Source: a virus. Taken from it: DNA of 46,943 nt. Below the pieces are notes generated by a model that ran no database searches, was not told the origin of the DNA, and saw only the letters and a list, made by a program, of their open reading frames with translations. The translations under genes were made by a program, and so were the position numbers. The stretch covers positions 1 to 46,943 of the IMG/VR virus record IMGVR_UViG_3300008448_000157; one strand, given 5' to 3'. This document shows positions 1,941-42,826 of the stretch, piece by piece; positions within the stretch are counted from its first letter, which is position 1, and every line of letters starts with the position of its first letter.

Positions 1941-3542
1941 ATGGACGTTTCAAAAATTGGAGGATCACCTGAGCTTACTCAGAAGTGGTCAAAGGCCCTT
2001 GACGGTATCAAGAATGAATATACCGCTCGGGTTACTGCTCAACTGCTTGAGAACCAAGCGAAGGCTGTTTTAGCCGAGAATCAGAGAGTCCGAGAAGAGA
2101 CTCTAAGCACGGGTGCCACCCAAGTTGGTAACATCGGTGTGTTCCAGAAGTTTGCGTTCCCTCTCGTTCGTAGAGTGTACCCAAACCTCGTGTTCAACTA
2201 CATCGGTGCGACCCAGCCAATGGATGCCCCTGTCAGCCAGATCTTCTATCTTGGCAACAGCAGATGGACTGGATCGAGCCAGCAGACTGTCTATAGCAAG
2301 TTCAACCTAACGTACAATGTTACTGGCACAACCGCCACGTTCCCAATTGATACGACTGGTGCATTAAACGGGAGACTTGCCTATGGTGAGGTTACAGCCC
2401 TTGCTGGTGGAGGAGGATTCAACCTTTCATCAGTCCTAAGCAATACCAGAGGTGCGCCTTCGACCACTTACGGTGGCAAGATTGCGTCATTCCCTGATTC
2501 AACAACTACTCTTGGTTGGACTGTATCAGCGGGTGAGAGACTTGATGGAACAGGAATCCCAGAGGTTCAGTTCCACATCGAGCAGCAGCCAGTTGTTGCG
2601 ACCACTCGCAAGATGCGCGCTCTCTGGACGATTGAGGCTTCACAAGACCTTAAGGCGTACCACAACCTCGACCTAGAGCGTGAGCTTACTGAACTACTCA
2701 GCAAGGAGCTTTCCCTCGAAATCGACCGTGAGCTAATCGAGGATATCCGTATGATTGCCTACGGATTCGCTGGTACAGCCGCTAGCATTGGTGGATGGAA
2801 TGCTAAGTCACTTGACCCCCTCGCCAATTCAAACAACTTTGGTAACAACTACTACGGAAAGACGACTGGAACAACCGGAACACAAGTTTACAACCCAGGT
2901 TCATTTGAGTGGGCTAATAATGGAGCCGCTGGCTTTGTCGATGGCTACCAGACTCAGACTGCTTCAAAGAACATCATTGTCGTTGATCTTGCTAGATTCC
3001 TTGGGTCAGCTTACGCTCCACAGCACGTTGGACACAGATATTCCAATATGCTTGCGGTTCTGAACTTTGCTAGCCAGGACATCTACAAGACCACGATGAG
3101 AGGTCCAGGTACGGTTCTTATCACTTCGCCACTCATCGCTTCAATACTTGAGTCAGCGGCGAAGCTTGAGGGTGGCTTACCAGCAGCCGATGGTCCAAGC
3201 AACATGGGAACCAAGATTGAGTACAAGGGCAAGTTTGCCGGTAAGTACGATCTGATCGTTGACCCCCTCTTCCCAGAGGACGAGATCATAATCGGGTATA
3301 ACGGTGGAAGTCCAATGGACAGCGGATTCGTCTACTGCCCATACATCCCACTCATGCCACTCCCAATGGTAACTGACCCAGGCTCATTCCAGCCAAGAAA
3401 GGGTATCATGACGAGATATGGCAAGACTGCTATCCAACCAGCTAGCAGATTCTACCGTGTCATCAGATTAATCGGAGCTAGCTCTGATTACCTACGTCCT
3501 GACATCCTGACGAACGGTGCGGGTAACCTCACAGTAGTCTGA
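1941..3542 (+). CDS. 23: Major capsid protein, T4 gp23-like
   Basis: The 533-aa shell protein. The segment TGATQVGNIGVFQKFAFPLV followed by RRVYPN and GATQPMDAPVSQIF matches the start of the mature gp23 fold. The N-terminal roughly 50 residues are helical and charged like the T4 delta peptide, and hold two LxE sites (LLE at 35-37, LAE at 44-46) where the gp21-like protease could cut. GC is higher here and codon use more even than in the neck genes downstream, as often seen in the most highly expressed phage gene. AAGGAG lies 6 nt before the ATG. Confidence 0.95.
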   Translation: MDVSKIGGSPELTQKWSKALDGIKNEYTARVTAQLLENQAKAVLAENQRVREETLSTGATQVGNIGVFQKFAFPLVRRVYPNLVFNYIGATQPMDAPVSQIFYLGNSRWTGSSQQTVYSKFNLTYNVTGTTATFPIDTTGALNGRLAYGEVTALAGGGGFNLSSVLSNTRGAPSTTYGGKIASFPDSTTTLGWTVSAGERLDGTGIPEVQFHIEQQPVVATTRKMRALWTIEASQDLKAYHNLDLERELTELLSKELSLEIDRELIEDIRMIAYGFAGTAASIGGWNAKSLDPLANSNNFGNNYYGKTTGTTGTQVYNPGSFEWANNGAAGFVDGYQTQTASKNIIVVDLARFLGSAYAPQHVGHRYSNMLAVLNFASQDIYKTTMRGPGTVLITSPLIASILESAAKLEGGLPAADGPSNMGTKIEYKGKFAGKYDLIVDPLFPEDEIIIGYNGGSPMDSGFVYCPYIPLMPLPMVTDPGSFQPRKGIMTRYGKTAIQPASRFYRVIRLIGASSDYLRPDILTNGAGNLTVV

Positions 3543-3565
3543 TACTAATAGTATCGGATTAAATT

Positions 3566-3598
3566 AAAGCGGGCTTAAAAAGCCCGCTTTTTTCTTTT
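3566..3598 (+). terminator. Rho-independent terminator after capsid gene
   Basis: A perfect 11-bp stem (3566-3576 with 3580-3590, core AAAGCGGGCTT) with an AAA loop is followed by a T-rich run (TTTCTTTT). It ends the protease-scaffold-capsid unit. Just upstream, directly after the capsid stop, a smaller inverted repeat GATACT-AAT-AGTATC lies at 3541-3555. Confidence 0.93.
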
Positions 3599-3607
3599 AT
3601 GGGAGAC

Positions 3608-3614
3608 CTAAATA
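3608..3614 (+). promoter_or_regulatory. Candidate late promoter at gp13 start
   Basis: CTAAATA lies just after the capsid terminator and 7 nt before the gp13 ATG at 3622. T4-type late promoters start transcription a few bases past this box, which would put the RNA 5' end at or next to the start codon. No Shine-Dalgarno is visible. Confidence 0.5.
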
Positions 3615-3621
3615 TTAGTAT

Positions 3622-4485
3622 ATGGTATCTACTCCAACAATAACAAGCTACGGGTCTAGCTACGGACGTTATGGTGGGCAGAGGCTCACAGATTATACTC
3701 TGGCTAACGATATAAACCAAGATAAATTAAATAAAAACTTAGAGGCAGACGGAGTTCAATTTAATTTATTTGAGCAGTCAGTTAATGATTATGTTTTAGC
3801 TCAACTAGGGCATCCTATCGTTGCTGTTGAATTAACTCCATTCCAAGTAAAGACTTGTATTGATGAAGCCGTGTCTAAGTTAGATTACCATGCCCCTCAA
3901 TGGGCTAGTCAATATGCTGTATTTGATGCTAGCTCAATGGAAAACTTATATGAGTTACCTCAATTTCTAGCTAACAACATAAGCTATGTTAATTACAAAA
4001 AAGATATTCTAGGATTAAATTATACACCTGGGTCTTTAGCTTTTGATTTTACATTAGCGTTCTTTAATACCAATAGATTCTTCCAAGGTGGCGGAATAGG
4101 AGACTTCTTCTTAACTCAGCAATATTTAGAGATGACAAGAAGAATACTCTCTAATGAAGGTGGCTGGAACATTGTTAATGGAAAGTATTTACAACTTTAC
4201 CCAGGACCAACTGAAACACCAACTCCGGTCATCATTGAGTATAGAGCGTTAGACTCTAATACAATTCATCATGCTTATCGAAATTGGATTCAACGCTATG
4301 CCACTGCATCCGCTAAGGGAATCTTAGGACGGATTAGAGGCAAGTATAAAACACTTCCTGGCCCAGGAGGAGGATCACAACTTGACGGAGGCATCCTCGT
4401 TCAAGAATCAGCGGAAGAGAAGAAGCAACTTATGGAAGAACTCATGCTTGAGATTCAAGAAGGACCAATGTTTATCGTAGGTTAA
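3622..4485 (+). CDS. 13: Neck protein, T4 gp13-like
   Basis: A 287-aa protein of the gp13 head-completion/neck family, which closes the filled head and helps form the site for tail joining. The signature region LGHPIVAVELTPFQVKTCID (about residues 62-81), followed by a helical EAVSKLDYH segment, is typical. Later come LQLYPGP and IIEYRAL strands, then a helical C-terminal region. It is the first gene after the capsid terminator, followed after 1 nt by gp14 and then gp15, so neck and tail-terminator genes form one unit. The N-terminal 40 residues (Gly/Ser/Tyr-rich) are unlike T4. Confidence 0.82.
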   Translation: MVSTPTITSYGSSYGRYGGQRLTDYTLANDINQDKLNKNLEADGVQFNLFEQSVNDYVLAQLGHPIVAVELTPFQVKTCIDEAVSKLDYHAPQWASQYAVFDASSMENLYELPQFLANNISYVNYKKDILGLNYTPGSLAFDFTLAFFNTNRFFQGGGIGDFFLTQQYLEMTRRILSNEGGWNIVNGKYLQLYPGPTETPTPVIIEYRALDSNTIHHAYRNWIQRYATASAKGILGRIRGKYKTLPGPGGGSQLDGGILVQESAEEKKQLMEELMLEIQEGPMFIVG

Positions 4486-4486
4486 C

Positions 4487-5050
4487 ATGAGTAATTTTGG
4501 AAAATATAAATCAAATATAAATCTTCCAAACTCTGACGAGTACGAAAGTCCGTTTCGTTTATTTAATAAACTAAACGATCAAAATTTATTTAATGTTGTA
4601 GATGAAGAGATTATAAAATTAGGCGGATCACCCTTAATGATTTATAAATATTATCAATCAAAAGATTTTGATAATGTTTATGGCGAGGAGAGAAGTAAGA
4701 CTTTCTCAGTAACTCCCATACGAATTTATGGACATTACGAGCCTAAGCCAATAGAAGAGAATTTAACTCAGTTTGGAATAGAGCTAACAAATGATCAGCA
4801 GTTTACATTTAATAAATCTTACGTTGAGCGAAGGCTAGGAAGACCGCTTATCCCAGGTGATGTAGTAAAGCCTGAATTTCAAAATCTAAAATACGAAGTT
4901 TATGAAGTTCAAGAAGATAGTTTTGAAACTTATGGAGTTTATCATCTTCTATGCAGTGCTAAATTATTAAGAGATTCTGAAGAGGTGCATAATCAACAAG
5001 TTCCAACCTCTGAAAAGATATTACAAAAAGAAATTTTAGAGGATCAGTAA
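4487..5050 (+). CDS. 14: Neck protein, T4 gp14-like head closure
   Basis: A 187-aa protein following gp13. Features shared with gp14 are an early DVYGEE-like turn (here NVYGEE), a strand region IRIYGHYEP, and RPLIPGDVVKPEF followed by YEVYEVQED and YHLLCSAKLL, the pattern of the small beta-barrel that plugs the head vertex. It is shorter than T4 gp14. With gp13 it would make the neck collar that gp15 on the tail docks to. The call rests on both pattern and place. Confidence 0.75.
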   Translation: MSNFGKYKSNINLPNSDEYESPFRLFNKLNDQNLFNVVDEEIIKLGGSPLMIYKYYQSKDFDNVYGEERSKTFSVTPIRIYGHYEPKPIEENLTQFGIELTNDQQFTFNKSYVERRLGRPLIPGDVVKPEFQNLKYEVYEVQEDSFETYGVYHLLCSAKLLRDSEEVHNQQVPTSEKILQKEILEDQ

Positions 5051-8894: not shown

Positions 8895-11393
8895 ATGAAG
8901 TATTTTACTGAACTACTTGAGAGCTATTCACGACTTAAGAAAAGAACACTTAAGTTACTTGAAGCGGAGCAGAATAATGAAGGTCCGTCTCAAGAAGCTG
9001 TTGCTAAAGCAAAACAAGCAATAAACCAGTTCAATAGTACTGTAGCAGCAGATCCTAATAAACCTAATATAAAAAGTTATCCATCTAAAAATCAGTTTAG
9101 AAGTAGTCCAGGTACTTATAATGTAAGAATTTTTTCAGGAGAAGATGGTATAAAAAAATATCAATTCGCTACTAGTATAAATGCTATAGATATTTTGCCC
9201 GAAACAGAAATGGACCCTGGTTGGAATAAATTTGTAAGTTATTTTGAAACAGATTTAAGCAAACGATTCGGAGGAGAGGGGGTAGGAACCACCGCTCCAA
9301 TTGAAAAACCTTCTAAACAAAAAACAAATTTAATTTCCTGGTGGGATGTAACAGGATTTGCATCAAAATTAAAGCAAGCTGTCTTAGATAGAATTGCAAG
9401 CAAGTTAGATTCTAAAAGAAAAGAAAAGTTTTTAAATTATATTTCAAAAGCTTTCTCAGGCAATAGAGCAGAAGGGTCTATTGCAAGAATGATTGATGAA
9501 AATACAAGTATCGCACTAGACGATAATGGCAATATTAATTTTGAAGATTCCGAAGAAGGTGCAGATCAAGAATTAAAAAATCAAGTTCAAGATACAATGA
9601 AAAAGTGTCTTGATATTTTTTCTAAAGATAAAATAACAGGTAGCGAATGTTCATTTTTAAAACAAAGTTTAGTTAAAGTTAAGGGTGGTCAGTTTGTAGT
9701 TAAGGATGCTATAAGTGGAGGGAGAGGCTTAGTATTTAACGACAGGAGCAAACACATTAGAGACTTGTTTGATACTGGTGCATCTATTCACGACTGCAAA
9801 TTAAATGAGATAAGCATGAGCCAGTTAGTTGGAGGTGGAAATCTCCGTGGTAACTACATGGAAATTGATGCAGTGGTGGCACACTTAGCTTTTGCCTGCG
9901 CCGATCCAGAAAAAAGAGCTAAGTACTCTAACTGTGAGGGAGCTAAAGAAGAACTTATTCAAGAAATGATTAATAATAGAGAAGGACTGAACAAAGCTTT
10001 CCAAGCATTAAAAGCTAAGGCTGAGGCAATGGATGGCGAGTTTGCAATTCCAACTGATGATGAAACTGCGTTAGCCATGGTGGAGCTTAGAAGAATATTT
10101 GGTGATAATGCTGACGTAGAAGTTGTTAGGAAGATTGCTCAAATGACGGCTTACGAATACAGAATAAGAAGACCAGATTTCATTCTTAGAGTCGGCGGAA
10201 CAACTAGGGGTGGAAGAAGAGCAGACACCCTAGAACTATATGAAACACGAGAAGCTGCTGTGAATGCAATGAAGCGTCAAGGCTTCAGCCCAGAAGATGC
10301 CGAGTCACTTGTAAAAGAAATGGACATTTCGGATATTTGTGGACAGGATGAAAGAATAGGTAAGACTTGCCCCAAAGATACTAGCAGATCGTACTATGGC
10401 GTTAATATTAGTATGAAAAACTATTTGAATATTGACGAGGGTATATCATTAGGGACAGTTTCTGAGAACACATCTAAAGCTGTTCTTACTGGAAGAGACT
10501 GTCCTAAGGGCGAAGAGGAGACTTGCTCACCGGAAGAAAGAGAATTAATTAATAGATTTAGAGTAAAAGCAAAAGAACATTTTAAATTGTCTGATTTAGA
10601 TGTGAGAGGCGTAAAAAAATTAGAAGAAAGATTATCTGAAATTGATGACAAAATTGATAGCTTAAATGATGCTAATGTCAGAGTTAAAGGTGGAGATAGA
10701 ATATCTGTTAAGCAATTAAAAACTTATGCTAAAACTCTGTCAAGCCAGATAATGAAAGACTTAGGTTACGAAGGTGCAACCGAGGATGGACTTTATAGAA
10801 AATTACAAGAATTCTACGAAGCTTCTGAAGGTGACCCTGAACAGCTTAAAGGATTAATAAAGTGCTTCGTTAGAGATCAAGAACTAAAAAAAATGATAAA
10901 CACTTCACAAGGGAGAAAAACAGTTAATGCACATAGAGCTATGACTGCATTCCTTGCGGGAGGATCTACTGACGATTCAGTTTTATCAGCTAGAGCTTTG
11001 CAAACTGGCGAGGCTTTTGTATCTCAGCAAAATAGTATGTTTGAAATGTATAGAGATGTGCTGGAGAAGGGTGATGATAGTGAGTATGAAATTGTATCAT
11101 CTGAGAGCGGTAGATCTGTAACTATTCAACATAAAGATGAAAATAAAAGAAAACAGACTGGGCATTCTATGAAAGTTTCTACTGATGTTAAGAAAAGCGG
11201 TAGACTGGACATGAAGGCTCACGCTAGTAGAAACCTTGTAAGATCAAAATCTAGAAAAGTTATAAAGAAGAGAGGAGAAGAGGGAACTACCCCTATCGCT
11301 CAGAACTCAAGCAATGAAATTATAAAAATGGGTATAACTATCTCAGAGATGCTTTTAAAGTATTCAAAAACTCTTAAGCAACTTGAAGACTAA
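8895..11393 (+). CDS. 832-aa protein of unknown function, likely virion or packaging related
   Basis: No family recognised. A charged helical N-terminus (to about residue 60) is followed by mixed alpha/beta regions. Residues near 430-460 read RRPDFILRVGGTTRGGRRAD then TLELYE, a Gly/Arg-rich strand-turn-strand. Cys pairs occur at CADPEKRAKYSNC, CGQDERIGKTC and CPKGEEETC, which could bind metal or form disulfides. The C-terminal 90 residues are very basic, and the protein ends in a helix (MLLKYSKTLKQLED). It has its own promoter after the tail terminator and a convergent nuclease gene overlapping its stop. Position after gp19 suggests a late role, but no function can be assigned. Confidence 0.85.
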   Translation: MKYFTELLESYSRLKKRTLKLLEAEQNNEGPSQEAVAKAKQAINQFNSTVAADPNKPNIKSYPSKNQFRSSPGTYNVRIFSGEDGIKKYQFATSINAIDILPETEMDPGWNKFVSYFETDLSKRFGGEGVGTTAPIEKPSKQKTNLISWWDVTGFASKLKQAVLDRIASKLDSKRKEKFLNYISKAFSGNRAEGSIARMIDENTSIALDDNGNINFEDSEEGADQELKNQVQDTMKKCLDIFSKDKITGSECSFLKQSLVKVKGGQFVVKDAISGGRGLVFNDRSKHIRDLFDTGASIHDCKLNEISMSQLVGGGNLRGNYMEIDAVVAHLAFACADPEKRAKYSNCEGAKEELIQEMINNREGLNKAFQALKAKAEAMDGEFAIPTDDETALAMVELRRIFGDNADVEVVRKIAQMTAYEYRIRRPDFILRVGGTTRGGRRADTLELYETREAAVNAMKRQGFSPEDAESLVKEMDISDICGQDERIGKTCPKDTSRSYYGVNISMKNYLNIDEGISLGTVSENTSKAVLTGRDCPKGEEETCSPEERELINRFRVKAKEHFKLSDLDVRGVKKLEERLSEIDDKIDSLNDANVRVKGGDRISVKQLKTYAKTLSSQIMKDLGYEGATEDGLYRKLQEFYEASEGDPEQLKGLIKCFVRDQELKKMINTSQGRKTVNAHRAMTAFLAGGSTDDSVLSARALQTGEAFVSQQNSMFEMYRDVLEKGDDSEYEIVSSESGRSVTIQHKDENKRKQTGHSMKVSTDVKKSGRLDMKAHASRNLVRSKSRKVIKKRGEEGTTPIAQNSSNEIIKMGITISEMLLKYSKTLKQLED

Positions 11394-12959: not shown

Positions 12960-12972
12960 AAAATATAATAGT

Positions 12973-13998
12973 ATGAGAATACTACCAGATCCATTTAAAA
13001 GTGAAAATAGTGGTTGCAAAGGCTGCACTATTCTTGAAAAGCCTAAGATGTGCCACTCGATCATGGATCACGAGGAGGAGGCTTTTAATAAGGATTGCCA
13101 TATCCTCTTTGTGTCGGAGTCCTTTAAGGTAGAGTTTGGCGAGATCACCCCCTTCGTAACGAAGGAGCAAGATCTTATCGAGTCTATCTTAATGTCGCTG
13201 GGCTACGCAGATCTTATCCCTCATGTCGAATACACCGCTGCGGTTAAGTGTCTCAGCGTTAAAGATAAGGACATGAACAAGGATGATAAAGATATCTGTC
13301 GAGCACACATTGCGAAGACTATCAAGGCGTGTAAGCCTAAGTTAATCTTCGTATGTGGCAACCTCCCGCTCGTGATGCTAACCAAGAAGAGCGGCATCAT
13401 GGACAAGCGTGGGAAGACGTTTGAGTACGATGGTATTCCTGTAGTGCCGTTGTACCATCCTTTCCAGGTCATCGTGGAACCACAGAACGAGTATCTGTTC
13501 AAGTTGGATATTCAGAATGGTATCGACGCTCACTACAAGCAGAAGGGAGCAGACTCTCAGTTCTGTTGGGAGCTTCTGGATACGCTGGAGAAGCTTAAGA
13601 AGTTAGACAGCTTTGTGAAGTGTGACGTAGCTGTTGATATTGAGACCACGGGACTAGACTTTCTCAAGGATGAGATCCAGACCATTGCTCTTAGTTTCGA
13701 CTGTGAGGGCAAGCACAAGACCTTCACGATCCCACTCTTCCACAAGGAGTTCGACCATCCTGAAGGTTGGGCGTTTAAAGTCTGCACAGTCCTAAACAAG
13801 ATTTTCTCATACGAGTATAGCAAGAAGATCTTTCACAAGGCTCAGTTCGATACCAAATTCTTGGCAAGACAAGGGCTACAAAACATCAGAAACATCTATG
13901 ATACCAAGCTGATGCAGCACATGGTAGATGAGAATCTACCCAAGAGCCTTAAGGATCTTGTTTCTTATTACTTCCCAACCGAGCAGAGCATCATTTAA
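12973..13998 (+). CDS. Uracil-DNA-glycosylase-like domain fused to 3'-5' exonuclease, first part of split family A DNA polymerase
   Basis: 341 aa. Residues 1-200 are a family-4/5-type UDG fold with the four iron-sulfur-type Cys (C15, C18, C93, C109), a YTAAVKC strand and YHPF (161-164), but the usual GEAPG motif reads SESFK, so activity is doubtful. Residues 215-341 are a DnaQ-like proofreading domain: motif I DIETTGL (D222, E224) and motif II HKAQFDTKFL. Motif III is missing because the frame stops at TAA 13996-13998, which overlaps the next ATG. UDG-exonuclease-polymerase fusions are known in SPO1-type phages. ATG 12973 is preferred to an upstream TTG at 12937. No ribosome site is visible. 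Confidence 0.85.
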   Translation: MRILPDPFKSENSGCKGCTILEKPKMCHSIMDHEEEAFNKDCHILFVSESFKVEFGEITPFVTKEQDLIESILMSLGYADLIPHVEYTAAVKCLSVKDKDMNKDDKDICRAHIAKTIKACKPKLIFVCGNLPLVMLTKKSGIMDKRGKTFEYDGIPVVPLYHPFQVIVEPQNEYLFKLDIQNGIDAHYKQKGADSQFCWELLDTLEKLKKLDSFVKCDVAVDIETTGLDFLKDEIQTIALSFDCEGKHKTFTIPLFHKEFDHPEGWAFKVCTVLNKIFSYEYSKKIFHKAQFDTKFLARQGLQNIRNIYDTKLMQHMVDENLPKSLKDLVSYYFPTEQSII

Positions 13999-14513
13999 TG
14001 TTAGGCCAAGACGGCAAGAAGACCGACTGGAAGAATATGCCACTAGCCCAGATGGCTCGTGGCAATGCTCTCGATGCTTATTTTACCCTTAAGGTATTCC
14101 ATAAGCTAGAGAAGCGCATTCAGGATCTTAAGATGCAGAACCTTTACGAGAAATTAATGGTTCCTGCGGTGGAATTCTTTAAGGATATGGAGCTTGATGG
14201 TCTGTATATATCGTCGGCAAAGGTAGAGGAGCTAGGCTCCCAGCTTAAGGATGATATTAATGATAAAGAAGACCAACTGTTCTCCTTCTCTCAGGTCAAC
14301 AAGACCTACGAGCTTACATCAACTGATGACCTCGTTAAAGTGCTTTACTCAGCGGATAAAAAGCACAATATTGTCGATGGGGGTTTCGGGTTATACCCAC
14401 CCATTTCATCTGAAAAGACGGGCGCACCCAGCACGAGTGCGGAAGCCCTTGATATATTACTAGAGCAACTAGAAGACGAGATTGATAAGCGAGGACTAAA
14501 TGAACAGGTTTGA
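13998..14513 (+). CDS. Middle part of split family A DNA polymerase (exonuclease motif III and linker)
   Basis: 171 aa. The start ATG overlaps the previous stop (TAATG), in the -1 frame relative to it. ARGNALDAYFTLKVF near residue 30 is the third proofreading motif, which belongs with motifs I and II in the preceding gene. The rest (ELDGLYISSAKVEELGSQLK, then YELTSTDDLVKVL and a PSTSAEAL turn) matches the segment joining the exonuclease domain to the polymerase thumb, where the usual phrase is a PSTS-type turn. It ends at TGA 14511-14513 inside the next gene. It is either a true separate subunit or a frameshifted part of one polymerase. Confidence 0.8.
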   Translation: MLGQDGKKTDWKNMPLAQMARGNALDAYFTLKVFHKLEKRIQDLKMQNLYEKLMVPAVEFFKDMELDGLYISSAKVEELGSQLKDDINDKEDQLFSFSQVNKTYELTSTDDLVKVLYSADKKHNIVDGGFGLYPPISSEKTGAPSTSAEALDILLEQLEDEIDKRGLNEQV

Positions 14514-15588
14514 AAAGCTAGAGCACGATAAGCAGATCTCACGCTCCGTTGTTACTAGCCTGGAAAGCCAGAAACTGATAGGGGCTAGGAACTTTATTAA
14601 GTCGTTGCTAGAGTTCCGACGCTCTCGTAAGCTTTTCGACACCTATATCTCAGGTGTGCGTGAGGCTATGAAGTACAATGGATCAAATAAGATTTACGTT
14701 GAGTATCGTCTTGACGGTACGGTGACCGGACGCCTATCTAATGCGGGCTACGAGGCGGGTGGGAACCGTATGGGGATCTCATTTCATACTCTGCCCCGTG
14801 AATCCAAGTTTAATATCCGTGATTATGTTGTGGCTCCCAAGGGCTACAAGTTCATCACTGCGGATATGAAGAGCATGGAACTAAGAGTCCTTGCTCACCT
14901 AGCCAAAGAGAAGAACATGGCTAAGGCTTTTCATGACCGAGTAGATCTCCATACCTATTCCGCTGCCATGACGTTTGGTAAGAAGATGGAAAAGGTAACC
15001 AAGGAGGAGCGTCAGATTGCCAAGGCTGTTAGCTTCTTGACGGTGTACGGAGGAACCGAGAAGACACTTGCCATGAAGCAAGGCATCAGCTTCAAGAAGG
15101 CCAAGGGCATCATCGACGGATGGATGGCTGCGTTCCCTGGTGTCCCAAGATACATGGAACTTGTTGATCGGTTTATCACAACCAACAAGTATGCCTACAC
15201 GATCTTCGGTCGTAGACGCAATCTACCTAACGCAGGCTCAGAGGCGAAATATATCCGGCAGGAGGCATTCCGCCAAGGACTAAACTTTACAGTGCAATCC
15301 TCAGCTAGCGATACTCTTGTCTGCTGTATGCTTGGTCTTCATAATGAACTTAAGAAGCGTAAGCTAGGATCCAAGATTGTAGCTACCGTACACGACAGCA
15401 TTGAATTGATAGCTCCAGAGAGCGAGGTGGATGAGACCGTCTCATTGCTCAACTACCATATGACCAGCTATCCATATATCAAGGAGAACTTTGGTATCAC
15501 GTTCTCAGTTCCCCTTGAGATTGAGGTTGTGGTAGGAGACTCGTTCGGCTCAGGTGAGGAATACCACCTCAGCAGTCCCACTTCCTGA
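14500..15588 (+). CDS. Family A DNA polymerase, palm/fingers domain (last part of split polymerase)
   Basis: 362 aa with all polymerase motifs: the thumb-end motif DGTVTGRLSN, motif A as ADMKSMELR (D122, E127), the O-helix RQIAKAVSFLTVYG (R171, K175, F179, Y183) and motif C as HDS (298-300). Motif A normally reads DYSQIELR, so the Tyr is replaced by Met and the Gln-Ile by Ser-Met. It overlaps the preceding frame by 14 nt, shifted in phase. T4 relatives normally use a family B polymerase, so this is a replisome substitution. Its 3' end overlaps a minus-strand gene by 20 nt. Confidence 0.93.
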   Translation: MNRFEKLEHDKQISRSVVTSLESQKLIGARNFIKSLLEFRRSRKLFDTYISGVREAMKYNGSNKIYVEYRLDGTVTGRLSNAGYEAGGNRMGISFHTLPRESKFNIRDYVVAPKGYKFITADMKSMELRVLAHLAKEKNMAKAFHDRVDLHTYSAAMTFGKKMEKVTKEERQIAKAVSFLTVYGGTEKTLAMKQGISFKKAKGIIDGWMAAFPGVPRYMELVDRFITTNKYAYTIFGRRRNLPNAGSEAKYIRQEAFRQGLNFTVQSSASDTLVCCMLGLHNELKKRKLGSKIVATVHDSIELIAPESEVDETVSLLNYHMTSYPYIKENFGITFSVPLEIEVVVGDSFGSGEEYHLSSPTS

Positions 15589-26040: not shown

Positions 26041-26075
26041 TTTATATTACGAATCATTTAACTATAATGATTCGT
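26041..26075 (+). promoter_or_regulatory. Promoter of glycan island with TATAAT 7 nt before the start
   Basis: TATAAT (26063-26068) ends 7 nt before the ATG at 26076, with a weak TTTATA -35 at 26041-26046 (16-nt spacer). No Shine-Dalgarno. This would give a leaderless or nearly leaderless message. It directly follows the terminator. Confidence 0.6.
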
Positions 26076-27266
26076 ATGTCAGACAAACTAAAAATATTAG
26101 TATTTCACCCCAATACAGGCGGATGTGCATATTACAGAAGCCTAATGCCCTACCATAAATTACTTGAACTTTATCCAGATAAAGTAGAAATTAGGTTTGA
26201 TGATAATCCACTTAAATTAAATTTAAAAACTGGCAAGTTTGATTATCCAGGTGCAGAGCTTGATGAGGCTCCTGAATGCATAAAGTGGGCGCACGTTGTA
26301 TTGATTAATAACATAAGTAACTTTGGGGGAGGTTATACAGCTAGAGTTCAGGGTCTAGCATTAAAAGCTAAGAAGTTTGTCCACTTCGACACAGATGATC
26401 TCCTGACCGAGCTTTACGAAGAACATCATCTTATAGATGTGTACAAAAATCAAGGCTTGAGTGATCTAACAAAGCACCTGTACCAGAACTCTCACCTAGT
26501 AACGGTCACTCAGATAAAGTTTGCGGAAAGAATAAAGCCATTCTGTCGTAATATTTTAGCTGTAGTAAAGAACGCTATTGACTACAACTTACCTTGCTGG
26601 AATCATCAGAAAACTAAATCAAAGGCAGTTAGAGTTGGATGGGCAGGGGGTATTCATCACAACCCAGACGTTAAAGTATTCTCGTCTGTGCCTCATCTAG
26701 TTAATCAGAAGGTCGGAAGAGAAAACGTATTCTGGGATTTTTACGGGATGCCACCTCCACCACAGAATGAGAAAGAGAAAGAGGATTGGCAGAATAAAGT
26801 ATGGGACAAGTACAAGGCTGAACTGTTAAAAGGTTTTAAGGGTCAGCGTAACTGGAATACTCATTATGCTGTAGGGCCACATGAATATGGCGTGTTCTAT
26901 TCAAACATGGATATAGCTATAGCTCCTTTGAAGATGAATACATTCAACGACTCCAAGTCAGATATCAAGGTAGCTGAGGCAGGCAGATACAAAGTTCCTC
27001 TAATAGCGTCGAACGTAGGCTGCTACAGCGACACCATAGTCAATGGTAAGACCGGATATCTCCTCGACCCAGATGCACCTAAAACTGAATGGGTGAGAAT
27101 CTTATCTAAGGTCGCAACGGATCACAAGTTACGGCAGGAGATGGGCGAGAACTTGCACGCCATAACAGAGGAACTGTTTAACATAAACAAAGTAGTTAAG
27201 TACCGTTTAGATGTTTATGAGCAGTGCTTTAAGGCTTTTGGAATGGATCCAAGGAGTAAACAATGA
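26076..27266 (+). CDS. Glycosyltransferase, GT4-like
   Basis: 396 aa with a GT-B fold layout: N-terminal Rossmann half starting KILVFHPNTGGCAYYR, and a C-terminal half with VRVGWAGGIHHNPD, then SNMDIAIAPLK and DIKVAEAGRYKVPLIASNVG followed by NGKTGYLLDPD, the sugar-nucleotide binding region of GT4 enzymes. It probably adds a sugar to a growing glycan; donor and acceptor are unknown. ATG 26076 is preferred to 26067 because it fits the TATAAT spacing; both are in frame. Base composition here is still like the genome core, unlike the AT-rich genes downstream. Confidence 0.82.
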   Translation: MSDKLKILVFHPNTGGCAYYRSLMPYHKLLELYPDKVEIRFDDNPLKLNLKTGKFDYPGAELDEAPECIKWAHVVLINNISNFGGGYTARVQGLALKAKKFVHFDTDDLLTELYEEHHLIDVYKNQGLSDLTKHLYQNSHLVTVTQIKFAERIKPFCRNILAVVKNAIDYNLPCWNHQKTKSKAVRVGWAGGIHHNPDVKVFSSVPHLVNQKVGRENVFWDFYGMPPPPQNEKEKEDWQNKVWDKYKAELLKGFKGQRNWNTHYAVGPHEYGVFYSNMDIAIAPLKMNTFNDSKSDIKVAEAGRYKVPLIASNVGCYSDTIVNGKTGYLLDPDAPKTEWVRILSKVATDHKLRQEMGENLHAITEELFNINKVVKYRLDVYEQCFKAFGMDPRSKQ

Positions 27267-28051
27267 TTAAAATATTAACAGGTTATTCAAATGTTGGGGG
27301 ATCGACAACAGCGTTAGCTGCTTTGTGCAACCTATTTAATGATAATAAAATGCCATGTGAACTTTACGGACCCACAGATTGGGTTAAAAGTAAACTAAAC
27401 GGTAATTACTACAAACCATTAAATTCAGCACAATTTAATAAAGAAGATACTGTAATTTATCACTTTTTAGGCGTAACCCAGCGATTAGAGGTTAAAAAGT
27501 TAATTTTGTCATGCCATGAAACAAATGTTTTCCCAATTAAAGAAGTTAAACCAGCATATGATGCTCTTCATTTTGTTTCTAAATTTCAAAAAGACTGGCA
27601 AGGGGTTGACGGTGTAGTTATTCCGAATGTAATTACAAAGTACAAAAAATCACAAAAAAGAACTACTAATAAAGTAGCAGGGATAGTAGGAAGTATTGAC
27701 CCTCATAAACAAACTCATTTATCTATAAAAAGAGCTTTGGAAGATAAGAACATATCAAAAATAGAGTTGTGGGGGCAAATAACAACTTTTGAATATTTTT
27801 GGAATGAAGTATATCCTTTATTAAATGAAAATATTTCTTATCACGGAGCTTCAAAAGATATGCAGAAAGTATATGACAGATTAGACGTTGTATTTTCTTC
27901 ATCGCTTCGTGAGTGTCTACCAATGATTCAAGCTGAGTGCCATTTAGCTGGGGTAGAATTCCGAGGACTTCCAGAGAATACTCGCTCACTAGAAGATTAC
28001 ATTTTTGATGATCAGGAGATCTTAAATAAATGGAAAGAGTTATTGTCTTAA
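27263..28051 (+). CDS. Glycosyltransferase-like protein, GT-B fold
   Basis: 262 aa. The start KILTGYSNVGGSTTALAAL is the glycine-rich loop of GT4-type enzymes. The middle has VAGIVGSIDPHKQTHLSIKR, and RLDVVFSSSLRECLPMIQAE near residue 210-229 is the donor-site E-x7-E-like region. It is shorter than usual for GT-B enzymes. It overlaps its upstream neighbour by ATGA and the next gene by 22 nt. It is strongly AT-rich, unlike the replication genes. Confidence 0.7.
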   Translation: MIKILTGYSNVGGSTTALAALCNLFNDNKMPCELYGPTDWVKSKLNGNYYKPLNSAQFNKEDTVIYHFLGVTQRLEVKKLILSCHETNVFPIKEVKPAYDALHFVSKFQKDWQGVDGVVIPNVITKYKKSQKRTTNKVAGIVGSIDPHKQTHLSIKRALEDKNISKIELWGQITTFEYFWNEVYPLLNENISYHGASKDMQKVYDRLDVVFSSSLRECLPMIQAECHLAGVEFRGLPENTRSLEDYIFDDQEILNKWKELLS

Positions 28052-28746
28052 CTACTATTTACAATTGCGATAAGTATTTATCAAAGTGCCTAGAAAGTAT
28101 AAAAAATCAAACTTATACAAACTGGGTATGTTATTTACTAAATGATTTATCTACAGATAATTCTAAGCAAATAGCCGAAGAGTATTGCTCTTCGGATTCA
28201 AGATTTGTACTGATTAATAATGATAAAAAGTATTATCAACCTGGGAACTATGATCAAATATTGAGATCAGACTTAGCTCAAAACGAAGATATCATAATTG
28301 AAGTAGATGGTGACGATTGGCTAGCGACTAAGGAAGCTTTTCAAAAAGTAATAAATGAACATCGAAAAGGATATTTGATCACTCATGGTAGTTTTAAATA
28401 TTCTGATGGTAGGCTAGGATTCTCTAAACCTTTAACAGTCAATCAACTTAGAACATCTATAGCTAATGCGACTCATTTACGAAGCTGGAGAGCCAAGCTT
28501 TGGAAGGCTATTAATAAAGAAGATCTTTTTGTGAATGGTTGGTACGCGGAGACAGCCGGGGATGTCTTTTTCATGCTCCCTATGCTTGAAATGGCAGGGG
28601 ATAATAAAATTATTCACATGAAGGATATTCTTTATATTTATAATGAAACAAATCCTATAAATGATCACAAAGTTAATATCTTAAAACAATTAAGATATGC
28701 TTCTTTAGGAAGATCATATAATTCATACAAAAAAATCTATAATTAA
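28030..28746 (+). CDS. Glycosyltransferase, GT2 family
   Basis: 238 aa, GT-A fold. VIVLTTIYNCDKYLSKCLES then TYTNWVCYLLNDLSTDNS is the GT2 N-terminal domain, and EVDGDDWL (about residues 92-99) carries the DxD-type metal site. Such enzymes transfer sugars from nucleotide-sugar donors; the specific sugar cannot be told. It starts within the preceding gene. Confidence 0.85.
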   Translation: MERVIVLTTIYNCDKYLSKCLESIKNQTYTNWVCYLLNDLSTDNSKQIAEEYCSSDSRFVLINNDKKYYQPGNYDQILRSDLAQNEDIIIEVDGDDWLATKEAFQKVINEHRKGYLITHGSFKYSDGRLGFSKPLTVNQLRTSIANATHLRSWRAKLWKAINKEDLFVNGWYAETAGDVFFMLPMLEMAGDNKIIHMKDILYIYNETNPINDHKVNILKQLRYASLGRSYNSYKKIYN

Positions 28747-28748
28747 AA

Positions 28749-29489
28749 ATGATTTCATCGTTTATACAGGGTGGCCTTGGTAATCAATTATTTCAGATTG
28801 CTGCTGGAGCTTCGTTAGCTAAAGATTTATCAACAGATTTTTTTTTGAATGACGGGCAACATTTTTTACCATTTCAAGGCAGTAGAGTAGAAACATATAA
28901 AGATAACATATTAAAAAACATAAAATTTAAAAATTTAAATAATCAAATTTTTGATTCTATTTATCATTACGAAGATTTAAAATACTTAGAAATACCAAAA
29001 AAAGATAATTTGGTTTTAGTTGGTTACTTTCAATCAGAAAAATATTTTTTACATAATGAAAAGTATATAACTTCTTTATTTAATCTAAATTTTATAGATT
29101 TACCTAAAAAATCTGTTTCTATTCATATTAGAAGAGGGGACTATTTAAATAATCCAGATGTACATCCTGCGCTCTCTGCTGATTATTACTATAAAGCATT
29201 AGAAGTCATAAATGATTATTCAAACATTTATGTTTTAACAGACTCAGATCTTCCAAAAAATTTTAATATAAAAAATATGCAAATTATAAAACATGGGAAA
29301 GACTATGATGACCTAGCTTTTATGGCTAGTTGTGACAATAATATAATTGCTAATTCTACTTTTAGTTGGTGGGCAGCATACCTTAATAGAAACAAAAACA
29401 AAAAAATTGTTGCTCCTAAGAATTGGTTTGGGCCAAAAGGCCCAAAAAATTGGGAAGATATTTATTGCAAAGATTGGGAGGTAATATGA
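28749..29489 (+). CDS. Alpha-1,2-fucosyltransferase, GT11
   Basis: 246 aa with GT11 motifs: IQGGLGNQLFQIAAG at the start, SIHIRRGDYL in the middle (GDP-fucose binding), and NSTFSWWAAYL near the C-terminus. It would move fucose from GDP-fucose onto a galactose-type acceptor. GDP-fucose can be made by the two enzymes encoded 5 kb downstream. Very AT-rich. The stop overlaps the next ATG (ATGA). Confidence 0.9.
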   Translation: MISSFIQGGLGNQLFQIAAGASLAKDLSTDFFLNDGQHFLPFQGSRVETYKDNILKNIKFKNLNNQIFDSIYHYEDLKYLEIPKKDNLVLVGYFQSEKYFLHNEKYITSLFNLNFIDLPKKSVSIHIRRGDYLNNPDVHPALSADYYYKALEVINDYSNIYVLTDSDLPKNFNIKNMQIIKHGKDYDDLAFMASCDNNIIANSTFSWWAAYLNRNKNKKIVAPKNWFGPKGPKNWEDIYCKDWEVI

Positions 29490-30796
29490 ATTTTTTTTCA
29501 GTGGCGATCCCAGCGTATGAAATGCATGGCAAAGGATCTGATTTTTTAGAATTTAGTTTCTCTAAACTTGAGTTTCAGTCTTTTAAAGATTTTGAAGTAG
29601 TAGTCTCTGATCATTCTTTAAATAATGATATAAAATTACTTTGTGAAAGATGGAAAGATAAATTAAATATAAAATATGTTCTAAATACAGAAAACAGAGG
29701 CAACTCTTCCGCAAATTTAAACAATGCAATCAAGCATTGTTCTGGATCTTGGATAAAAATTTTATTTCAAGATGATTTTCTTTATTGTGAAAATTCACTT
29801 AATACAATTTATGAATCAATAAAAGATTCAGATTTTTGGGTTGTTAATGGAAGTATACACTCTACTGATCAATTAAACTTTTTTAATAAATTTACTCCAA
29901 GTTGGAGTGATAACCTACATTTGGGAATTAATACAATAAGTTCTCCTAGTGTTGTTTGTTTTAAAAATTTAAAAAACAATATAATTTTTGACTCAAGTTT
30001 AATATGGATGATGGATATTGATTATTATTTAAGAATGAATGATAGATTTGGGAATCCTAAGATTATAACTAGCACTATAACTGTCAACAGGCTGTGGGAA
30101 AACCAACTTTCAAATACGATTACTCAGGAAACAAAGAAAAAAGAAACTGATATTGTGACTTATAAAAATGAAATAAGAAAAAATTTAGAAACTGTTTTCA
30201 ATAATTTAATTAATAAAAATTTACCAAATGAACTTTTGTTTGGATTGGGTATTGTTGACATTAATGAACATTTACAAACTTTAAAATCCTTAGCGTCGGA
30301 GTGTACTTTAGTTACAGAGTTAGGGACAAGATTTGCCATATCTACGATGGCTTTGCTAATGGGAAGACCCTCTAAAGTTATTTCTGTTGATCTTAATTAT
30401 CATTTTTTTAAACCTCATGAGAAAAGAATTTTAGATTTTGCAAAAGCGTGCGGTGTAGATTTCTCATTTATTGAAGCGGACGATTTGGCTATTGAACTAG
30501 AGAATACTGATTTATTATTTATAGATACATTACACACTTACGATCAGTTGACAAAAGAACTTGAAAAGCATTCTAGTAAAGTTAATAAGTACATAGTTTT
30601 GCATGACACGGAAACTTTTAAAAATGTTGATGAAGCTTTTTATCAAAATGGTAAAGTTTCTACAGAAGTAAAAAAAGGGGATAAACAAGGCTTATGGCCT
30701 GCTGTAGAATATTTTTTAAATTGTAATTTAAATTGGGGGGTTTATCGGCATTATTCAAACAACAACGGACTAACAATTTTAAAAAGAAAAAAATGA
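29486..30796 (+). CDS. Fusion of GT2-type glycosyltransferase and SAM-type methyltransferase-like domain
   Basis: 436 aa. Residues 1-230 are GT2-like (SVAIPAYEMHGKG, FEVVVSDHS, FQDDFLY as metal site). From about 250, a Rossmann methyltransferase-type domain follows: VTELGTRFAISTMALLMGRP (SAM loop), VISVDLN, LLFIDTLHTYDQLTKELEKH and YIVLHDTETF, as in Methyltransf_24/cephalosporin-hydroxylase-like proteins. One chain could add a sugar and methylate it. ATG 29486 (ATGA overlap) is preferred to an upstream codon at 29423. Confidence 0.78.
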   Translation: MNFFSVAIPAYEMHGKGSDFLEFSFSKLEFQSFKDFEVVVSDHSLNNDIKLLCERWKDKLNIKYVLNTENRGNSSANLNNAIKHCSGSWIKILFQDDFLYCENSLNTIYESIKDSDFWVVNGSIHSTDQLNFFNKFTPSWSDNLHLGINTISSPSVVCFKNLKNNIIFDSSLIWMMDIDYYLRMNDRFGNPKIITSTITVNRLWENQLSNTITQETKKKETDIVTYKNEIRKNLETVFNNLINKNLPNELLFGLGIVDINEHLQTLKSLASECTLVTELGTRFAISTMALLMGRPSKVISVDLNYHFFKPHEKRILDFAKACGVDFSFIEADDLAIELENTDLLFIDTLHTYDQLTKELEKHSSKVNKYIVLHDTETFKNVDEAFYQNGKVSTEVKKGDKQGLWPAVEYFLNCNLNWGVYRHYSNNNGLTILKRKK

Positions 30797-31458
30797 TAAA
30801 TTTAAATCAAGTAACTCTAGCATTAATGACTTCTGTAAATTTAGAAAGATCTATTAAAGCAATTGAATACAGTACTAAAAATATAAATTTTAAACAAGTT
30901 AAATTATTTACAGATAAAAGTATAAATCATAAAACAATAGAGATTGTTCCTGTGCCTAAGATGTCATCAACTGATGATTACAGTTACAATGTAATATATG
31001 AATTGCCAAAACATATAACAACTGACTATGTTTTAATAATACAAGAGGATGGATTCATTATAAATCCTAATCTTTGGCAAAATGAATTTTTAAATTATGA
31101 CTATATTGGAGCACCATTTCCTTTGCCTAGAGACCATTTCTCTTACAGAGATGCAAAGAGCAATATATTCAGAGTTGGAAATGGTGGATTTTCATTAAGA
31201 AGTAAAAAATTATTAAATATTCCAATTAAATTAAATTTACCTTGGAAGTCTTTTCATGGATTTTACAATGAAGATGGTTTTATTTGTGCAATGAATAGAC
31301 ATATTTATGAAGACAATGGGTGTGTTTTTGCGCCTTTGGATATTGCAATTAAATTTTCTTTTGAACACTCAATTGAAAATAACATTAATGTTAAAACCTT
31401 TGGTTTTCACGGAAAACATAATTTTGCTTATATGAGTTTGTTAGATGATAATAAATGA
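30793..31458 (+). CDS. DUF5672-like putative glycosyltransferase
   Basis: 221 aa. YVLIIQEDGFIINPNLW with YDYIGAPFPL, GNGGFSLRSKKL and FYNEDGFICAMNR are the hallmark segments of the DUF5672 group, a GT-A-like family with EDG as probable metal site. The acceptor is unknown. It overlaps the preceding gene (ATGA) and the next one by 14 nt. AT-rich. Confidence 0.8.
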   Translation: MINLNQVTLALMTSVNLERSIKAIEYSTKNINFKQVKLFTDKSINHKTIEIVPVPKMSSTDDYSYNVIYELPKHITTDYVLIIQEDGFIINPNLWQNEFLNYDYIGAPFPLPRDHFSYRDAKSNIFRVGNGGFSLRSKKLLNIPIKLNLPWKSFHGFYNEDGFICAMNRHIYEDNGCVFAPLDIAIKFSFEHSIENNINVKTFGFHGKHNFAYMSLLDDNK

Positions 31459-32326
31459 AATAAAAAAAGGCCAAGGACTTGGTAATCAGTTATTTTGTTA
31501 TGTATCAACAAGATGTATAGCAAAAGACAATGGGTATGATTTTGGATTTATGGGCACAGAATTTTTAGGAGACGTAAGATATAACTCTGAAGGTTTATAT
31601 TTTATGAACTTAGACATGGGTAAGCCACCAAAAGAAGTTTGTAGTACCTATACGGAACATTCCACCAGAGTAAAGTTTAACACTTGCTACCATGATATGA
31701 TCCATGGATGTGATGTTAGAAGTTACGATAAAGAGTTACATAATGTAAAAGACAATACTTTGATAGATGGTATTATGCAAGATCAAAAATATTTTTATCA
31801 TCATATTAAAGATATAAAAAATTGGTTAAAATTAAAAACTGAATATGATTCTTATGAATTTTACAAAGATAATTTATGCATACTAAATTTTAGAGGCGGG
31901 GAATACACGAATCACCCCGAGTTATTTCTTTCTAGAAATTATTGGGTTAATGCTATGAATAATATGTTGAAATTAAATCCAAATATGGTATTTAAAGTGA
32001 TAACAGATGATGTAACTTCAGCAAAAAGAATGCTTCCAGAGCTAGAATGTTTTCATTTTGATATTGCGAAAGATTACGCATCAATAAAAAATTCTAAGTA
32101 TGTGATATTATCTAATTCAACATTCGCTTGCTTTCCAGTTTTTACAAGTGAAACTATAGAGTGGGTTATAGCACCAAAATACTGGTCTAGACATAATTTA
32201 TCTAACGGGTACTGGGCAACTGAACAAAATCTATATCAAGGCTGGATGTGGCAGGATAGAGAAGGCGAGCTTTATACTTATGATCAATGTGTTGAAGAGC
32301 TTAAGAATTATAACCAGTTTATATAA
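31445..32326 (+). CDS. Second GT11-like fucosyltransferase
   Basis: 293 aa. QGLGNQLFCYVSTR at the N-terminus, LNFRGGEYTNHPELFLS in the middle (compare HxRRGDY in standard GT11) and LSNSTFACFPVFTSE near the end follow the GT11 order. The HIRRGDY motif is changed to NFRGGEY, so donor handling may differ. With the gene at 28749 it makes two fucosyltransferase-type enzymes of different sequence in one cluster. A 113-nt gap follows. Confidence 0.78.
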   Translation: MIINEIKKGQGLGNQLFCYVSTRCIAKDNGYDFGFMGTEFLGDVRYNSEGLYFMNLDMGKPPKEVCSTYTEHSTRVKFNTCYHDMIHGCDVRSYDKELHNVKDNTLIDGIMQDQKYFYHHIKDIKNWLKLKTEYDSYEFYKDNLCILNFRGGEYTNHPELFLSRNYWVNAMNNMLKLNPNMVFKVITDDVTSAKRMLPELECFHFDIAKDYASIKNSKYVILSNSTFACFPVFTSETIEWVIAPKYWSRHNLSNGYWATEQNLYQGWMWQDREGELYTYDQCVEELKNYNQFI

Positions 32327-32439
32327 CTTCTCGCTATAATTAATAAATGGAATAATGTTATGAGAAGATCATTAATAGAGATATGATGATTATTTAATAA
32401 TCATTACTCATAAGATCAACGAGCTTAAGTAAAAATTCA
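32327..32439 (+). promoter_or_regulatory. Intergenic gap inside glycan island: TATAAT box and AT-rich hairpin
   Basis: TATAAT (32335-32340) sits in an AT-rich gap. A perfect 9-bp inverted repeat with a 1-nt loop (32386-32394 with 32396-32404) follows. Several ATGs (32347, 32355, 32360) open frames of 2 to 8 codons only. It likely provides a fresh promoter for the second half of the island. Confidence 0.45.
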
Positions 32440-33264
32440 ATGAGAAAAATATACGATTGTTTTTTGTTTTACAATGAACTTGATTTATTAGATCTGAGGT
32501 TTAAAATTCTTGATGATGTGGTTGATTTTTTTGTAATAGCAGAATCAAATAAAACTTTTTCTAATCAAGATAAAGAATTGATCTTTGAAAAGAATAAAAA
32601 CAGATATTCAAAATTTTTACATAAAATTATTCATGTAAAAATTTTAGATAATCCTAATGAATTTTTAAATTATGACAATAGGGTTGACCGAGAAGCCATA
32701 ATGTCAAAAAAATCTGGGATATTTCATCCTCATGAGCATCAGTGGGGGCGAGAGACCTATCAAAGGGAGTGTATTGCGCGGGGTTTGGTAGGTTGTAAGG
32801 ACGATGATTTTATATTGATATCTGATGTTGATGAGATACCAAATCCAAAACTATTACTCTCCTTGGAGTTAAATAAAAATTATTGTTTCGAACAGAGGAT
32901 GTTTTACTACTACATTAATTGTTTGAAGCAGGAAGCCTGGGCGGGGACGAAGGCAGTTCCCTATAGTTTATTAAAAAATAATCCTGTAAATTTTATAAGA
33001 CAAAATAAGTTTACGGAAATTACTTTACACGAAGGCGGATGGCACTTTTCATTTTTAGGGGATGAAACTTTTATAAAGAATAAAATTAAATCTTATTCTC
33101 ACCAAGAATTTAATAATGATTTTATTTTAAATTCTATAAAATCTAATATAGATGCTTGTAACGATCCGTTTTTTAGAGGAAAATTAATGGTTGTCCCATT
33201 GGATGGATCATTCCCAGACGAGGTTCGTAGAAACTTAAGCAGCTATAAGCACTGGATAAAATGA
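32440..33264 (+). CDS. GT17-like N-acetylglucosaminyltransferase family protein
   Basis: 274 aa. IYDCFLFYNELDLLDLRF, VDFFVIAESNKTFS, FILISDVDEIPNP and GGWHFSFLG give the full motif order of GT17 enzymes (beta-1,4-mannosyl-glycoprotein N-acetylglucosaminyltransferase type), with DVD as metal site. Such genes are frequent in marine phage glycan clusters. The donor sugar is by family only. No Shine-Dalgarno is visible. The stop overlaps the next ATG (ATGA). Confidence 0.85.
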   Translation: MRKIYDCFLFYNELDLLDLRFKILDDVVDFFVIAESNKTFSNQDKELIFEKNKNRYSKFLHKIIHVKILDNPNEFLNYDNRVDREAIMSKKSGIFHPHEHQWGRETYQRECIARGLVGCKDDDFILISDVDEIPNPKLLLSLELNKNYCFEQRMFYYYINCLKQEAWAGTKAVPYSLLKNNPVNFIRQNKFTEITLHEGGWHFSFLGDETFIKNKIKSYSHQEFNNDFILNSIKSNIDACNDPFFRGKLMVVPLDGSFPDEVRRNLSSYKHWIK

Positions 33265-34196
33265 AGATTTATACAATATGCTTTAACAGACCTGAATTTA
33301 TTGAATTACAATTAAAATCAGCAATAAAATTTGTAGAAGATTTTGAGGAATTGATTGTATTAAATAATGCTGTTGATAATTTAGAAAACTACAAAAAGAT
33401 AAACGAAACTTGCCAAGCATTAAATATTAAATGTTACCAAATTCCATTTAAATATGCAGAATATTACAAAGTAAGTAATAGTCACTCCGCAGCATTCTCG
33501 ATGAATTATTTGTTTGAGGAAGTCCTCCAGGATCATGAGAACTGTTGTATAATTCACTCTGATATGTTCTTTATAAAGAGAGTAAACTTACAAGAGTTAC
33601 TATCAGATAATGATATAATTTATTACCCACAATATAGACAGAACTTTGGAATCCATTATTGTTATGATGGATTCTGTATTTTAAATTTAGTAAAAAACAA
33701 AAGTCTGAAAACTATGAAGTGGAATAATGGAGTATTGATCTCAAACACAGAACTTACAGATGCTGGGGGTGCGACTCACTTCTTCTTTGAACAAAATAAA
33801 TCTCTAAAGAAAAATTTTGTTGAAGAGTATTCAATCTACAACTCTTCAATAAATGAATGTGATTTAATAATAAATGGAAATATAAATTACAAAATAAATT
33901 TTGAGAATAATACTATTCAACATACAGGAGGGAATAAATATAAAAACAAGTCATTCCCTTATGAAGATAGCGATGATAATTATTACTCAAATTTAATTTT
34001 AAAATGTAAAAAATTACTAGATAAAATTTTACCATATAATTTTCCAAATCCTATTCATTTTGGGCTTTTAAAGAATATGATGGAGGATGATTATTTTATG
34101 GCACACTACAAAACCGGTTCAAACTATTTAAATTTTTGTAATACTGACTATAATGCTAAAAAATTTCATAGTCTAAAAAACTTTTTGGGAATCTGA
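33261..34196 (+). CDS. Putative glycosyltransferase, GT-A-like
   Basis: 311 aa. IYTICFNRPEFIELQLKSA and EELIVLNNAVD fit the first strands of a GT-A domain, and CIIHSDMFFIKR carries a DxD-like HSDMFF site. AGGATHFFFEQN later is a possible acceptor region. No named family can be assigned. It lies between the GT17 gene and GDP-fucose synthase and is strongly AT-rich, so it clearly belongs to the same cluster. Confidence 0.65.
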   Translation: MKIYTICFNRPEFIELQLKSAIKFVEDFEELIVLNNAVDNLENYKKINETCQALNIKCYQIPFKYAEYYKVSNSHSAAFSMNYLFEEVLQDHENCCIIHSDMFFIKRVNLQELLSDNDIIYYPQYRQNFGIHYCYDGFCILNLVKNKSLKTMKWNNGVLISNTELTDAGGATHFFFEQNKSLKKNFVEEYSIYNSSINECDLIINGNINYKINFENNTIQHTGGNKYKNKSFPYEDSDDNYYSNLILKCKKLLDKILPYNFPNPIHFGLLKNMMEDDYFMAHYKTGSNYLNFCNTDYNAKKFHSLKNFLGI

Positions 34197-34200
34197 ATAT

Positions 34201-42739: not shown

Positions 42740-42748
42740 TATTTTTAC

Positions 42749-42822: not shown

Positions 42823-42826
42823 ATAT

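Follow-up and report, generated by a model that had tools for sequence, protein, structure and literature searches.

The locus described here lies in IMG/VR virus record IMGVR_UViG_3300008448_000157, of which we analyzed the whole stretch of 46,943 bases (hereafter the window). Positions 12973-15588 encode one uracil-DNA glycosylase (UDG)-like / 3'-5' exonuclease / family A DNA polymerase as three overlapping open reading frames (ORFs) on the plus strand, here called p1, p2, and p3 (Table 1). ORF coordinates and Pfam matches agree with the initial annotation, which had described one enzyme spread over three overlapping frames that meet at a TAATG and at a 14-nt overlap; both joints are present as described, and its assignment of exonuclease motifs I and II to the first gene, motif III to the second, and the polymerase motifs to the third is borne out by D222/E224 and D293 of p1, D26 of p2, and the DNA_pol_A match of p3. 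The Pfam matches of p1 are to UDG (PF03167, 5.9e-8) and to model positions 10-129 of DNA_pol_A_exo1 (PF01612, 2.7e-14), while p2 matches the rest of the latter model (positions 139-172) at 0.011, which is below Pfam's cut-off, and p3 matches DNA_pol_A (PF00476, 1.3e-72). The phage DNA polymerase family phrog_17 is matched in order by p1 (481-785), p2 (793-922, at 4e-11), and p3 (932-1237), and a PDB profile search with p1 returned family 4 UDG together with the exonuclease domains of Klenow and apPol. The Pfam and phrog_17 match positions place the two cuts between exonuclease motifs II and III and within the thumb; the first part of the thumb is encoded in p2, which leaves p3 without a complete thumb-palm-fingers unit in a single chain.

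Table 1. Positions of the three reading frames, their joints, and the conserved residues of the split polymerase in the window
Feature	Positions	Strand	Size or basis
p1: UDG-like Fe-S domain and N-terminal exonuclease part (motifs I, II)	12973..13998	+	341 aa
p2: C-terminal exonuclease part (motif III) and first thumb part	13998..14513	+	171 aa
p3: remaining thumb, palm, and fingers of family A DNA polymerase	14500..15588	+	362 aa
Joint 1: TAATG, p1 stop and p2 start share one base	13996..14000	+	sequence
Joint 2: p2/p3 overlap of 14 nt	14500..14513	+	sequence
Four [4Fe-4S]-type cysteines of p1 (C15, C18, C93, C109)	13015..13299 (first to last)	+	Cys in 93/93 rows
Exonuclease motif I, D222/E224 of p1	13636..13644	+	invariant in 93/93 rows
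Exonuclease motif II, D293 (HKAQFDTKFL) of p1	13849..13851	+	invariant in 93/93 rows
Exonuclease motif III, D26 (GNALDAYFT) of p2	14073..14075	+	Asp in 91/91
Polymerase motif A, D122 to E127 of p3 (Klenow D705 to E710)	14863..14880	+	
Polymerase motif C, H298-D299-S300 of p3 (Klenow H881-D882-E883)	15391..15399	+	Ser for Glu
Shine-Dalgarno-like GAGGA before p3	14491..14495	+	duplex energy -8.4 kcal/mol

Relatives were gathered by profile searches with p1, p2, and p3, and their reading frames were classified with hidden Markov models; the sample holding both p1 and p2 comprises 142 loci, which form 92 clusters at 95% nucleotide identity. The comparison with the polymerases of relatives that the initial annotation had suggested revealed the same breaks across this sample: p1 and p2 share a single ORF in none of the 142 loci or 92 clusters, and p2 and p3 are separate in every one of the 89 covered clusters except L108 (positions 9241-10086), a natural re-fusion in which a single-base difference from near relatives brings both into one ORF. 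Close relatives (p3 identity 100-62%) retain both breaks, and the three-piece layout recurs in relatives whose p1 identity falls to about 35%. A 130-kb contig (QCKN01000003.1, our locus L230) from the single-cell genome of Prochlorococcus sp. AG-409-P03 likewise encodes the polymerase in three pieces, with joint 1 holding an insert; as a different type of assembly, it provides a further case against assembly error. Measured against the homologous locus L008, dN/dS is 0.035 for p1 (where dS is near saturation), 0.066 for p2, and 0.040 for p3; the three pieces are thus under purifying selection.

These data bear on the simplest alternative, namely that the true gene is one ORF and that the window carries two compensating indels, as assembly errors or recent mutations. 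The window alone is also compatible with this explanation, since p1 and p3 lie in a common frame and p2 in another, exactly as two opposite single-base errors would leave them; however, the relatives exclude it, because unrelated assemblies would need identical errors at identical places, and whole genes occupy the joints in some of them (see below). Single-base errors near 13990-14000 and 14490-14515 that restore one frame, raised at the outset as the observation that could overturn the split, are excluded by the 92 clusters and by the single-cell genome, leaving the indel explanation with a vanishingly small probability. The split is a group-wide, probably inherited feature and not an assembly error, and the T4-like bacterial viruses that carry it form a large, mostly marine group. 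As a separate observation, the 130-kb contig may represent a phage of that Prochlorococcus cell; the association by itself is no proof of host, and we note it as a lead toward the host of this phage group.

To the sequence at the joints the relatives add considerable variety. At joint 1, p1 and p2 overlap by one base in 59 of the 92 clusters and by 7-17 bases in 6; in 3 clusters 1-42 bases lie between them, and the other 24 contain inserts of 151-1038 bases. The frame relation at this joint is -1, 0, or +1. At joint 2, the frame relation is +1 in 73 of 89 clusters, +2 in 14, and 0 in 2; here the overlaps span 1-44 nt, and the only departures are the re-fusion described above and a single 577-nt gap that holds a gene (L166). 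The polymerase of this last locus (positions 3265-4977) is interrupted at both joints, by a 2OG-Fe(II) oxygenase gene at joint 1 and by the gene for a DUF6445 protein at joint 2. An HNH endonuclease (HNH_3) gene sits exactly at joint 1 in L058, L116, and L160 and in these loci only, whereas L040 and L080 have there a 271-aa protein without an assigned family that tiles from TAATG to TAATG; the other joint 1 inserts encode small proteins without a confident family, and antisense genes occur in many lineages. Same-strand inserts at joint 1 are mostly occupied by their own ORF. In L002 and L008, a spacer that contains another in-frame stop separates the p1 stop from p2. Cargo genes, the HNH endonuclease among them, probably landed at joint 1 later on, and in lineages with genes lodged in the joints the pieces have to be made as separate proteins.

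The contents of the joints also decide between separate chains and the other ways in which one chain might be restored. Programmed ribosomal frameshifting at both joints, by which some or all of the product would be a single chain, would suit the short overlaps of most members and the prevalence of +1 at joint 2; on the other hand, it is contradicted by the variable frame relations at both joints, by inserts of up to 1038 nt, and by the two in-frame stops before p2 in L002 and L008. Nor is any slippery sequence conserved before joint 1, where the codons vary synonymously across relatives. The suggestion in the initial annotation that ribosomes might shift frame twice is therefore rejected for the group, and we consider frameshifting highly improbable. 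Restoration by RNA or protein splicing, through a group I intron or a split intein, can be likened to the intron of SPO1 polA and to the split intein reported in a phage PolB (PMC6892783). However, no Rfam intron was matched at gathering score in the window or in five insert-bearing or divergent loci, there is nothing to splice out in 59 clusters, and same-strand inserts are largely taken up by coding sequence. Furthermore, p1 ends 3-10 residues past its last conserved Phe-Pro and p2 starts at once, which leaves no room for intein halves. Splicing in either form appears even more improbable. Based on the inserted genes, the variable frames, the lack of a slippery run, and the abutting pieces, we reject frameshifting, splicing, and inteins as a general mechanism.

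Separate translation raises the question of how each piece is started. The p2 start codon is ATG in 88 of the 92 clusters, GTG in 3, and ATC in 1, and residue 2 of p2 is Leu in 92/92. Shine-Dalgarno strength was scored as duplex energy with the 16S tail, with a threshold of -5 kcal/mol that 16% of control positions reach; at least this strength is found before p3 in 92% of 88 clusters and before p2 in 47% of insert-free clusters, and it is reached before p1 in no cluster. These features point to translation of p2 by termination-reinitiation at the TAATG overlap, while p3 would use its own ribosome-binding site within the end of p2 and would be initiated either independently or coupled. Two further observations concern the start regions. 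A TATAAT-like element (TATAATAGTATG, 12964-12975) lies directly before the p1 start and also upstream of p1 in most relatives, possibly marking a leaderless start or a divergent promoter; loci with an inserted antisense gene have a similar element before p2. In L107/L056, p2 apparently starts at the rare codon ATC, preceded by a strong GAGGAGGA sequence.

Both catalytic domains were examined residue by residue in the aligned relatives. All four acidic metal ligands of the DEDD exonuclease are kept and are spread over two chains, three in p1 and one in p2 (Table 1). The alternative offered in the initial annotation, a proofreading site rebuilt from two chains, is supported by the invariance of these ligands on both pieces. 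In 91/91 members, the motif III Asp stands 26 or 27 residues from the p2 start; together with the nearly constant p1 terminus, such fixed distances are those expected if both ends border one fold. In p3, the equivalents of R668, D705, E710, K758, F762, Y766, H881, and D882 (motifs A, B, and C) are kept in every covering row. Motif C reads HDS and not HDE, with Ser at the Klenow E883 position (15397-15399) in 84/84 covering members. A second substitution affects the exonuclease: the DEDDy Tyr (Klenow Y497), four residues before the last Asp, is Gly in 91/91 p2 sequences (G22 in the window, 14061-14063), suggesting that the exonuclease may work differently. The unsplit homologues of Myoviridae sp. 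MW202455 and Gordonia phage Yarn keep the motif III Tyr. In the UDG-like domain, the His of the family 4 HP motif is present in 89/93 rows, and motif 1 (GEAPG), which is retained in MW202455, is replaced, for example by SDSFK or SESFK in the commonest rows. Judged from this replacement, the UDG-like domain is probably not an active glycosylase.

The motif III Gly and the replaced UDG motif 1 would also fit a different assignment of roles, in which replication is the work of p3 (with p2) alone and p1 has become an independent UDG-like protein or nuclease that shares no proofreading site with p2; that about 1 kb of other genes can part p1 from p2 points in the same direction. Against such independence, the motif III Asp of p2 is as invariant as the D/E/D set of p1, the end of p1 and the start of p2 both keep to within a few residues of the fold they share, and p1 alone is short of the helix that carries motif III in the DEDD fold. 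We regard an independent p1 as unlikely.

To examine the shared fold, an AlphaFold model was built of the p1 and p2 of L008, read through the two stops of the spacer as a single chain. The model has a mean pLDDT (predicted local distance difference test score) of 78.3. Most of the motif III helix scores 91-95, against 41-45 for the artificial linker, and the fold of p2 is continuous with that of p1. Foldseek searches with the model returned family A polymerases, family 4 UDG, and whole DEDD nucleases (NrnC and diDNase, with a template modeling score of up to 0.76, normalized by target). The AlphaFold model of p3, folded alone, matches the Bst Pol I large fragment (E 4e-23).

We propose that p1, p2, and p3 would be translated separately from one operon and would come together noncovalently as a heteromeric family A replicase, a single Klenow-like enzyme with a two-chain proofreading site, and we assign this reading a probability of roughly 0.85. 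One cut would fall in the thumb and the other in the loop that joins exonuclease motifs II and III, so that p1 would supply three of the acidic ligands of the DEDD site and p2 the remaining one. Several points weigh against this proposal. The Gly in place of the motif III Tyr may leave the rebuilt proofreading site weak or inactive, its metal ligands kept nonetheless. The structure models are linked or single-chain models and not complexes, and binding between separate chains goes beyond what they show. A strong Shine-Dalgarno sequence precedes p2 in only about half of the insert-free clusters, and that of the window is weak (-2.2 kcal/mol), which makes the translation level of p2 uncertain; where an antisense gene occupies joint 1, the route of p2 expression is itself in question.

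A more speculative extension of the three-chain enzyme is switchable proofreading, in which the three-subunit replicase is obligate and docking of p1, which is made upstream and readily uncouples from p2/p3, is needed to complete the exonuclease site. Although we hold this to be doubtful, if it were true the polymerase would run with or without proofreading, the UDG-like Fe-S domain would sense the template instead of acting as a glycosylase, and the Tyr-to-Gly replacement would be part of an altered exonuclease.

In the p3 tree, a branch with support of 100/99 has all 47 thinned split sequences on the same side. The unsplit outgroups sit on long branches, which makes a single origin likely and not proven, and the split was probably inherited from the common ancestor of this large phage group. 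The lineage with the HNH gene (L058/L116/L160) is nested within the tree, which suggests that the endonuclease may have invaded an older split, a scenario also considered for gp43 of phage 25 (PMC2988022). The nested position gives no support to the view that the HNH gene caused the split.

The genome context is that of a T4-like myovirus, with PHROG matches to a gp23-type capsid protein, prohead protease, tail sheath, UvsX, an SbcCD-like pair, and NrdA. Elsewhere in the window, a run of glycosyltransferase and nucleotide-sugar epimerase genes (26067-36119) lies between the replication genes and uvsX, and three consecutive tRNA genes occupy 42638-42899.

The proofreading sites of replicative polymerases are usually viewed as one folded domain. 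The present aquatic phage group has kept metal ligands on two chains, together with a second cut in the thumb, through divergence to about 35% identity. For family A polymerases, it provides split points that evolved naturally, as well as a system in which fidelity tuning via subunit docking can be tested. It also holds a warning for annotation: pipelines see three ORFs, with p2 under the Pfam cut-off, and may call the gene broken.

Unsplit homologues with the same UDG-exonuclease-PolA domain order are found in SPO1 (gp31), Gordonia phage Yarn (gp40), and Myoviridae sp. MW202455, which the p1, p2, and p3 profiles match in order. Unlike the locus in the window, each of these is one ORF, with that of SPO1 broken only by a later intron with a homing endonuclease, and in MW202455, Yarn, and Agrobacterium JP1 a single ORF passes through both joints. 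A far relative is carried by Vibrio phages D69, D181, and D148. In D69 (OZ195729, VPHD69_0209/0208/0207; L226, 704-3447), the first PolA piece ends past exonuclease motif II, a 181-aa ORF follows, and the next piece begins before motif III; however, p3 identity is 31.5%, the motif III Tyr is kept, joint 2 is uncut, and another cut lies near the O helix. The D69 cut is probably independent of that in the group of the window, and since it falls in roughly the same exonuclease loop, this loop may be one where cuts are tolerated. The D69 pieces are annotated just as two DNA polymerases and hypothetical proteins. Rhodothermus phage RM378 (Far-T4), a T4-like phage with exonuclease and polymerase in separate genes, was also considered as a homologous case and set aside: no p1, p2, or p3 profile matched in the first 50 kb searched, and its annotated pieces, read by eye, are 5'-3' exonuclease-like and family B exonuclease-like, the latter being the annotated DNA polymerase gene.

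Split phage polymerases as such are already known, as are a split NrdA and a two-piece PolA in OM43 phages. Among the open-licence papers searched, none was found to describe a family A polymerase in three pieces or a group-wide cut through the proofreading site. The OM43 phages MEP401 and MEP402 are also marine and encode a family A polymerase as two ORFs with a small ORF between them, but there the cut lies inside the PF00476 polymerase domain, unlike those in the window (PMC10580990). The NrdA of phage Aeh1 is likewise an enzyme rebuilt from two polypeptides, and it is active; its frame was split by the insertion of an HNH gene (mobE), whereas here the split may be the older event and the HNH gene is confined to one nested lineage (PMC2988022). 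A further parallel is the replicative polymerase of Aeromonas phages 25 and 44RR, which is likewise encoded in separate genes, gp43A and gp43B, with a homing endonuclease or spacer at the joint, and whose products in phage 25 co-purify with polymerase activity present (PMC2988022). That enzyme belongs to family B and comes in two pieces; in the window, a family A polymerase comes in three, is cut through its exonuclease site, and is shared in this form by a whole phage group.
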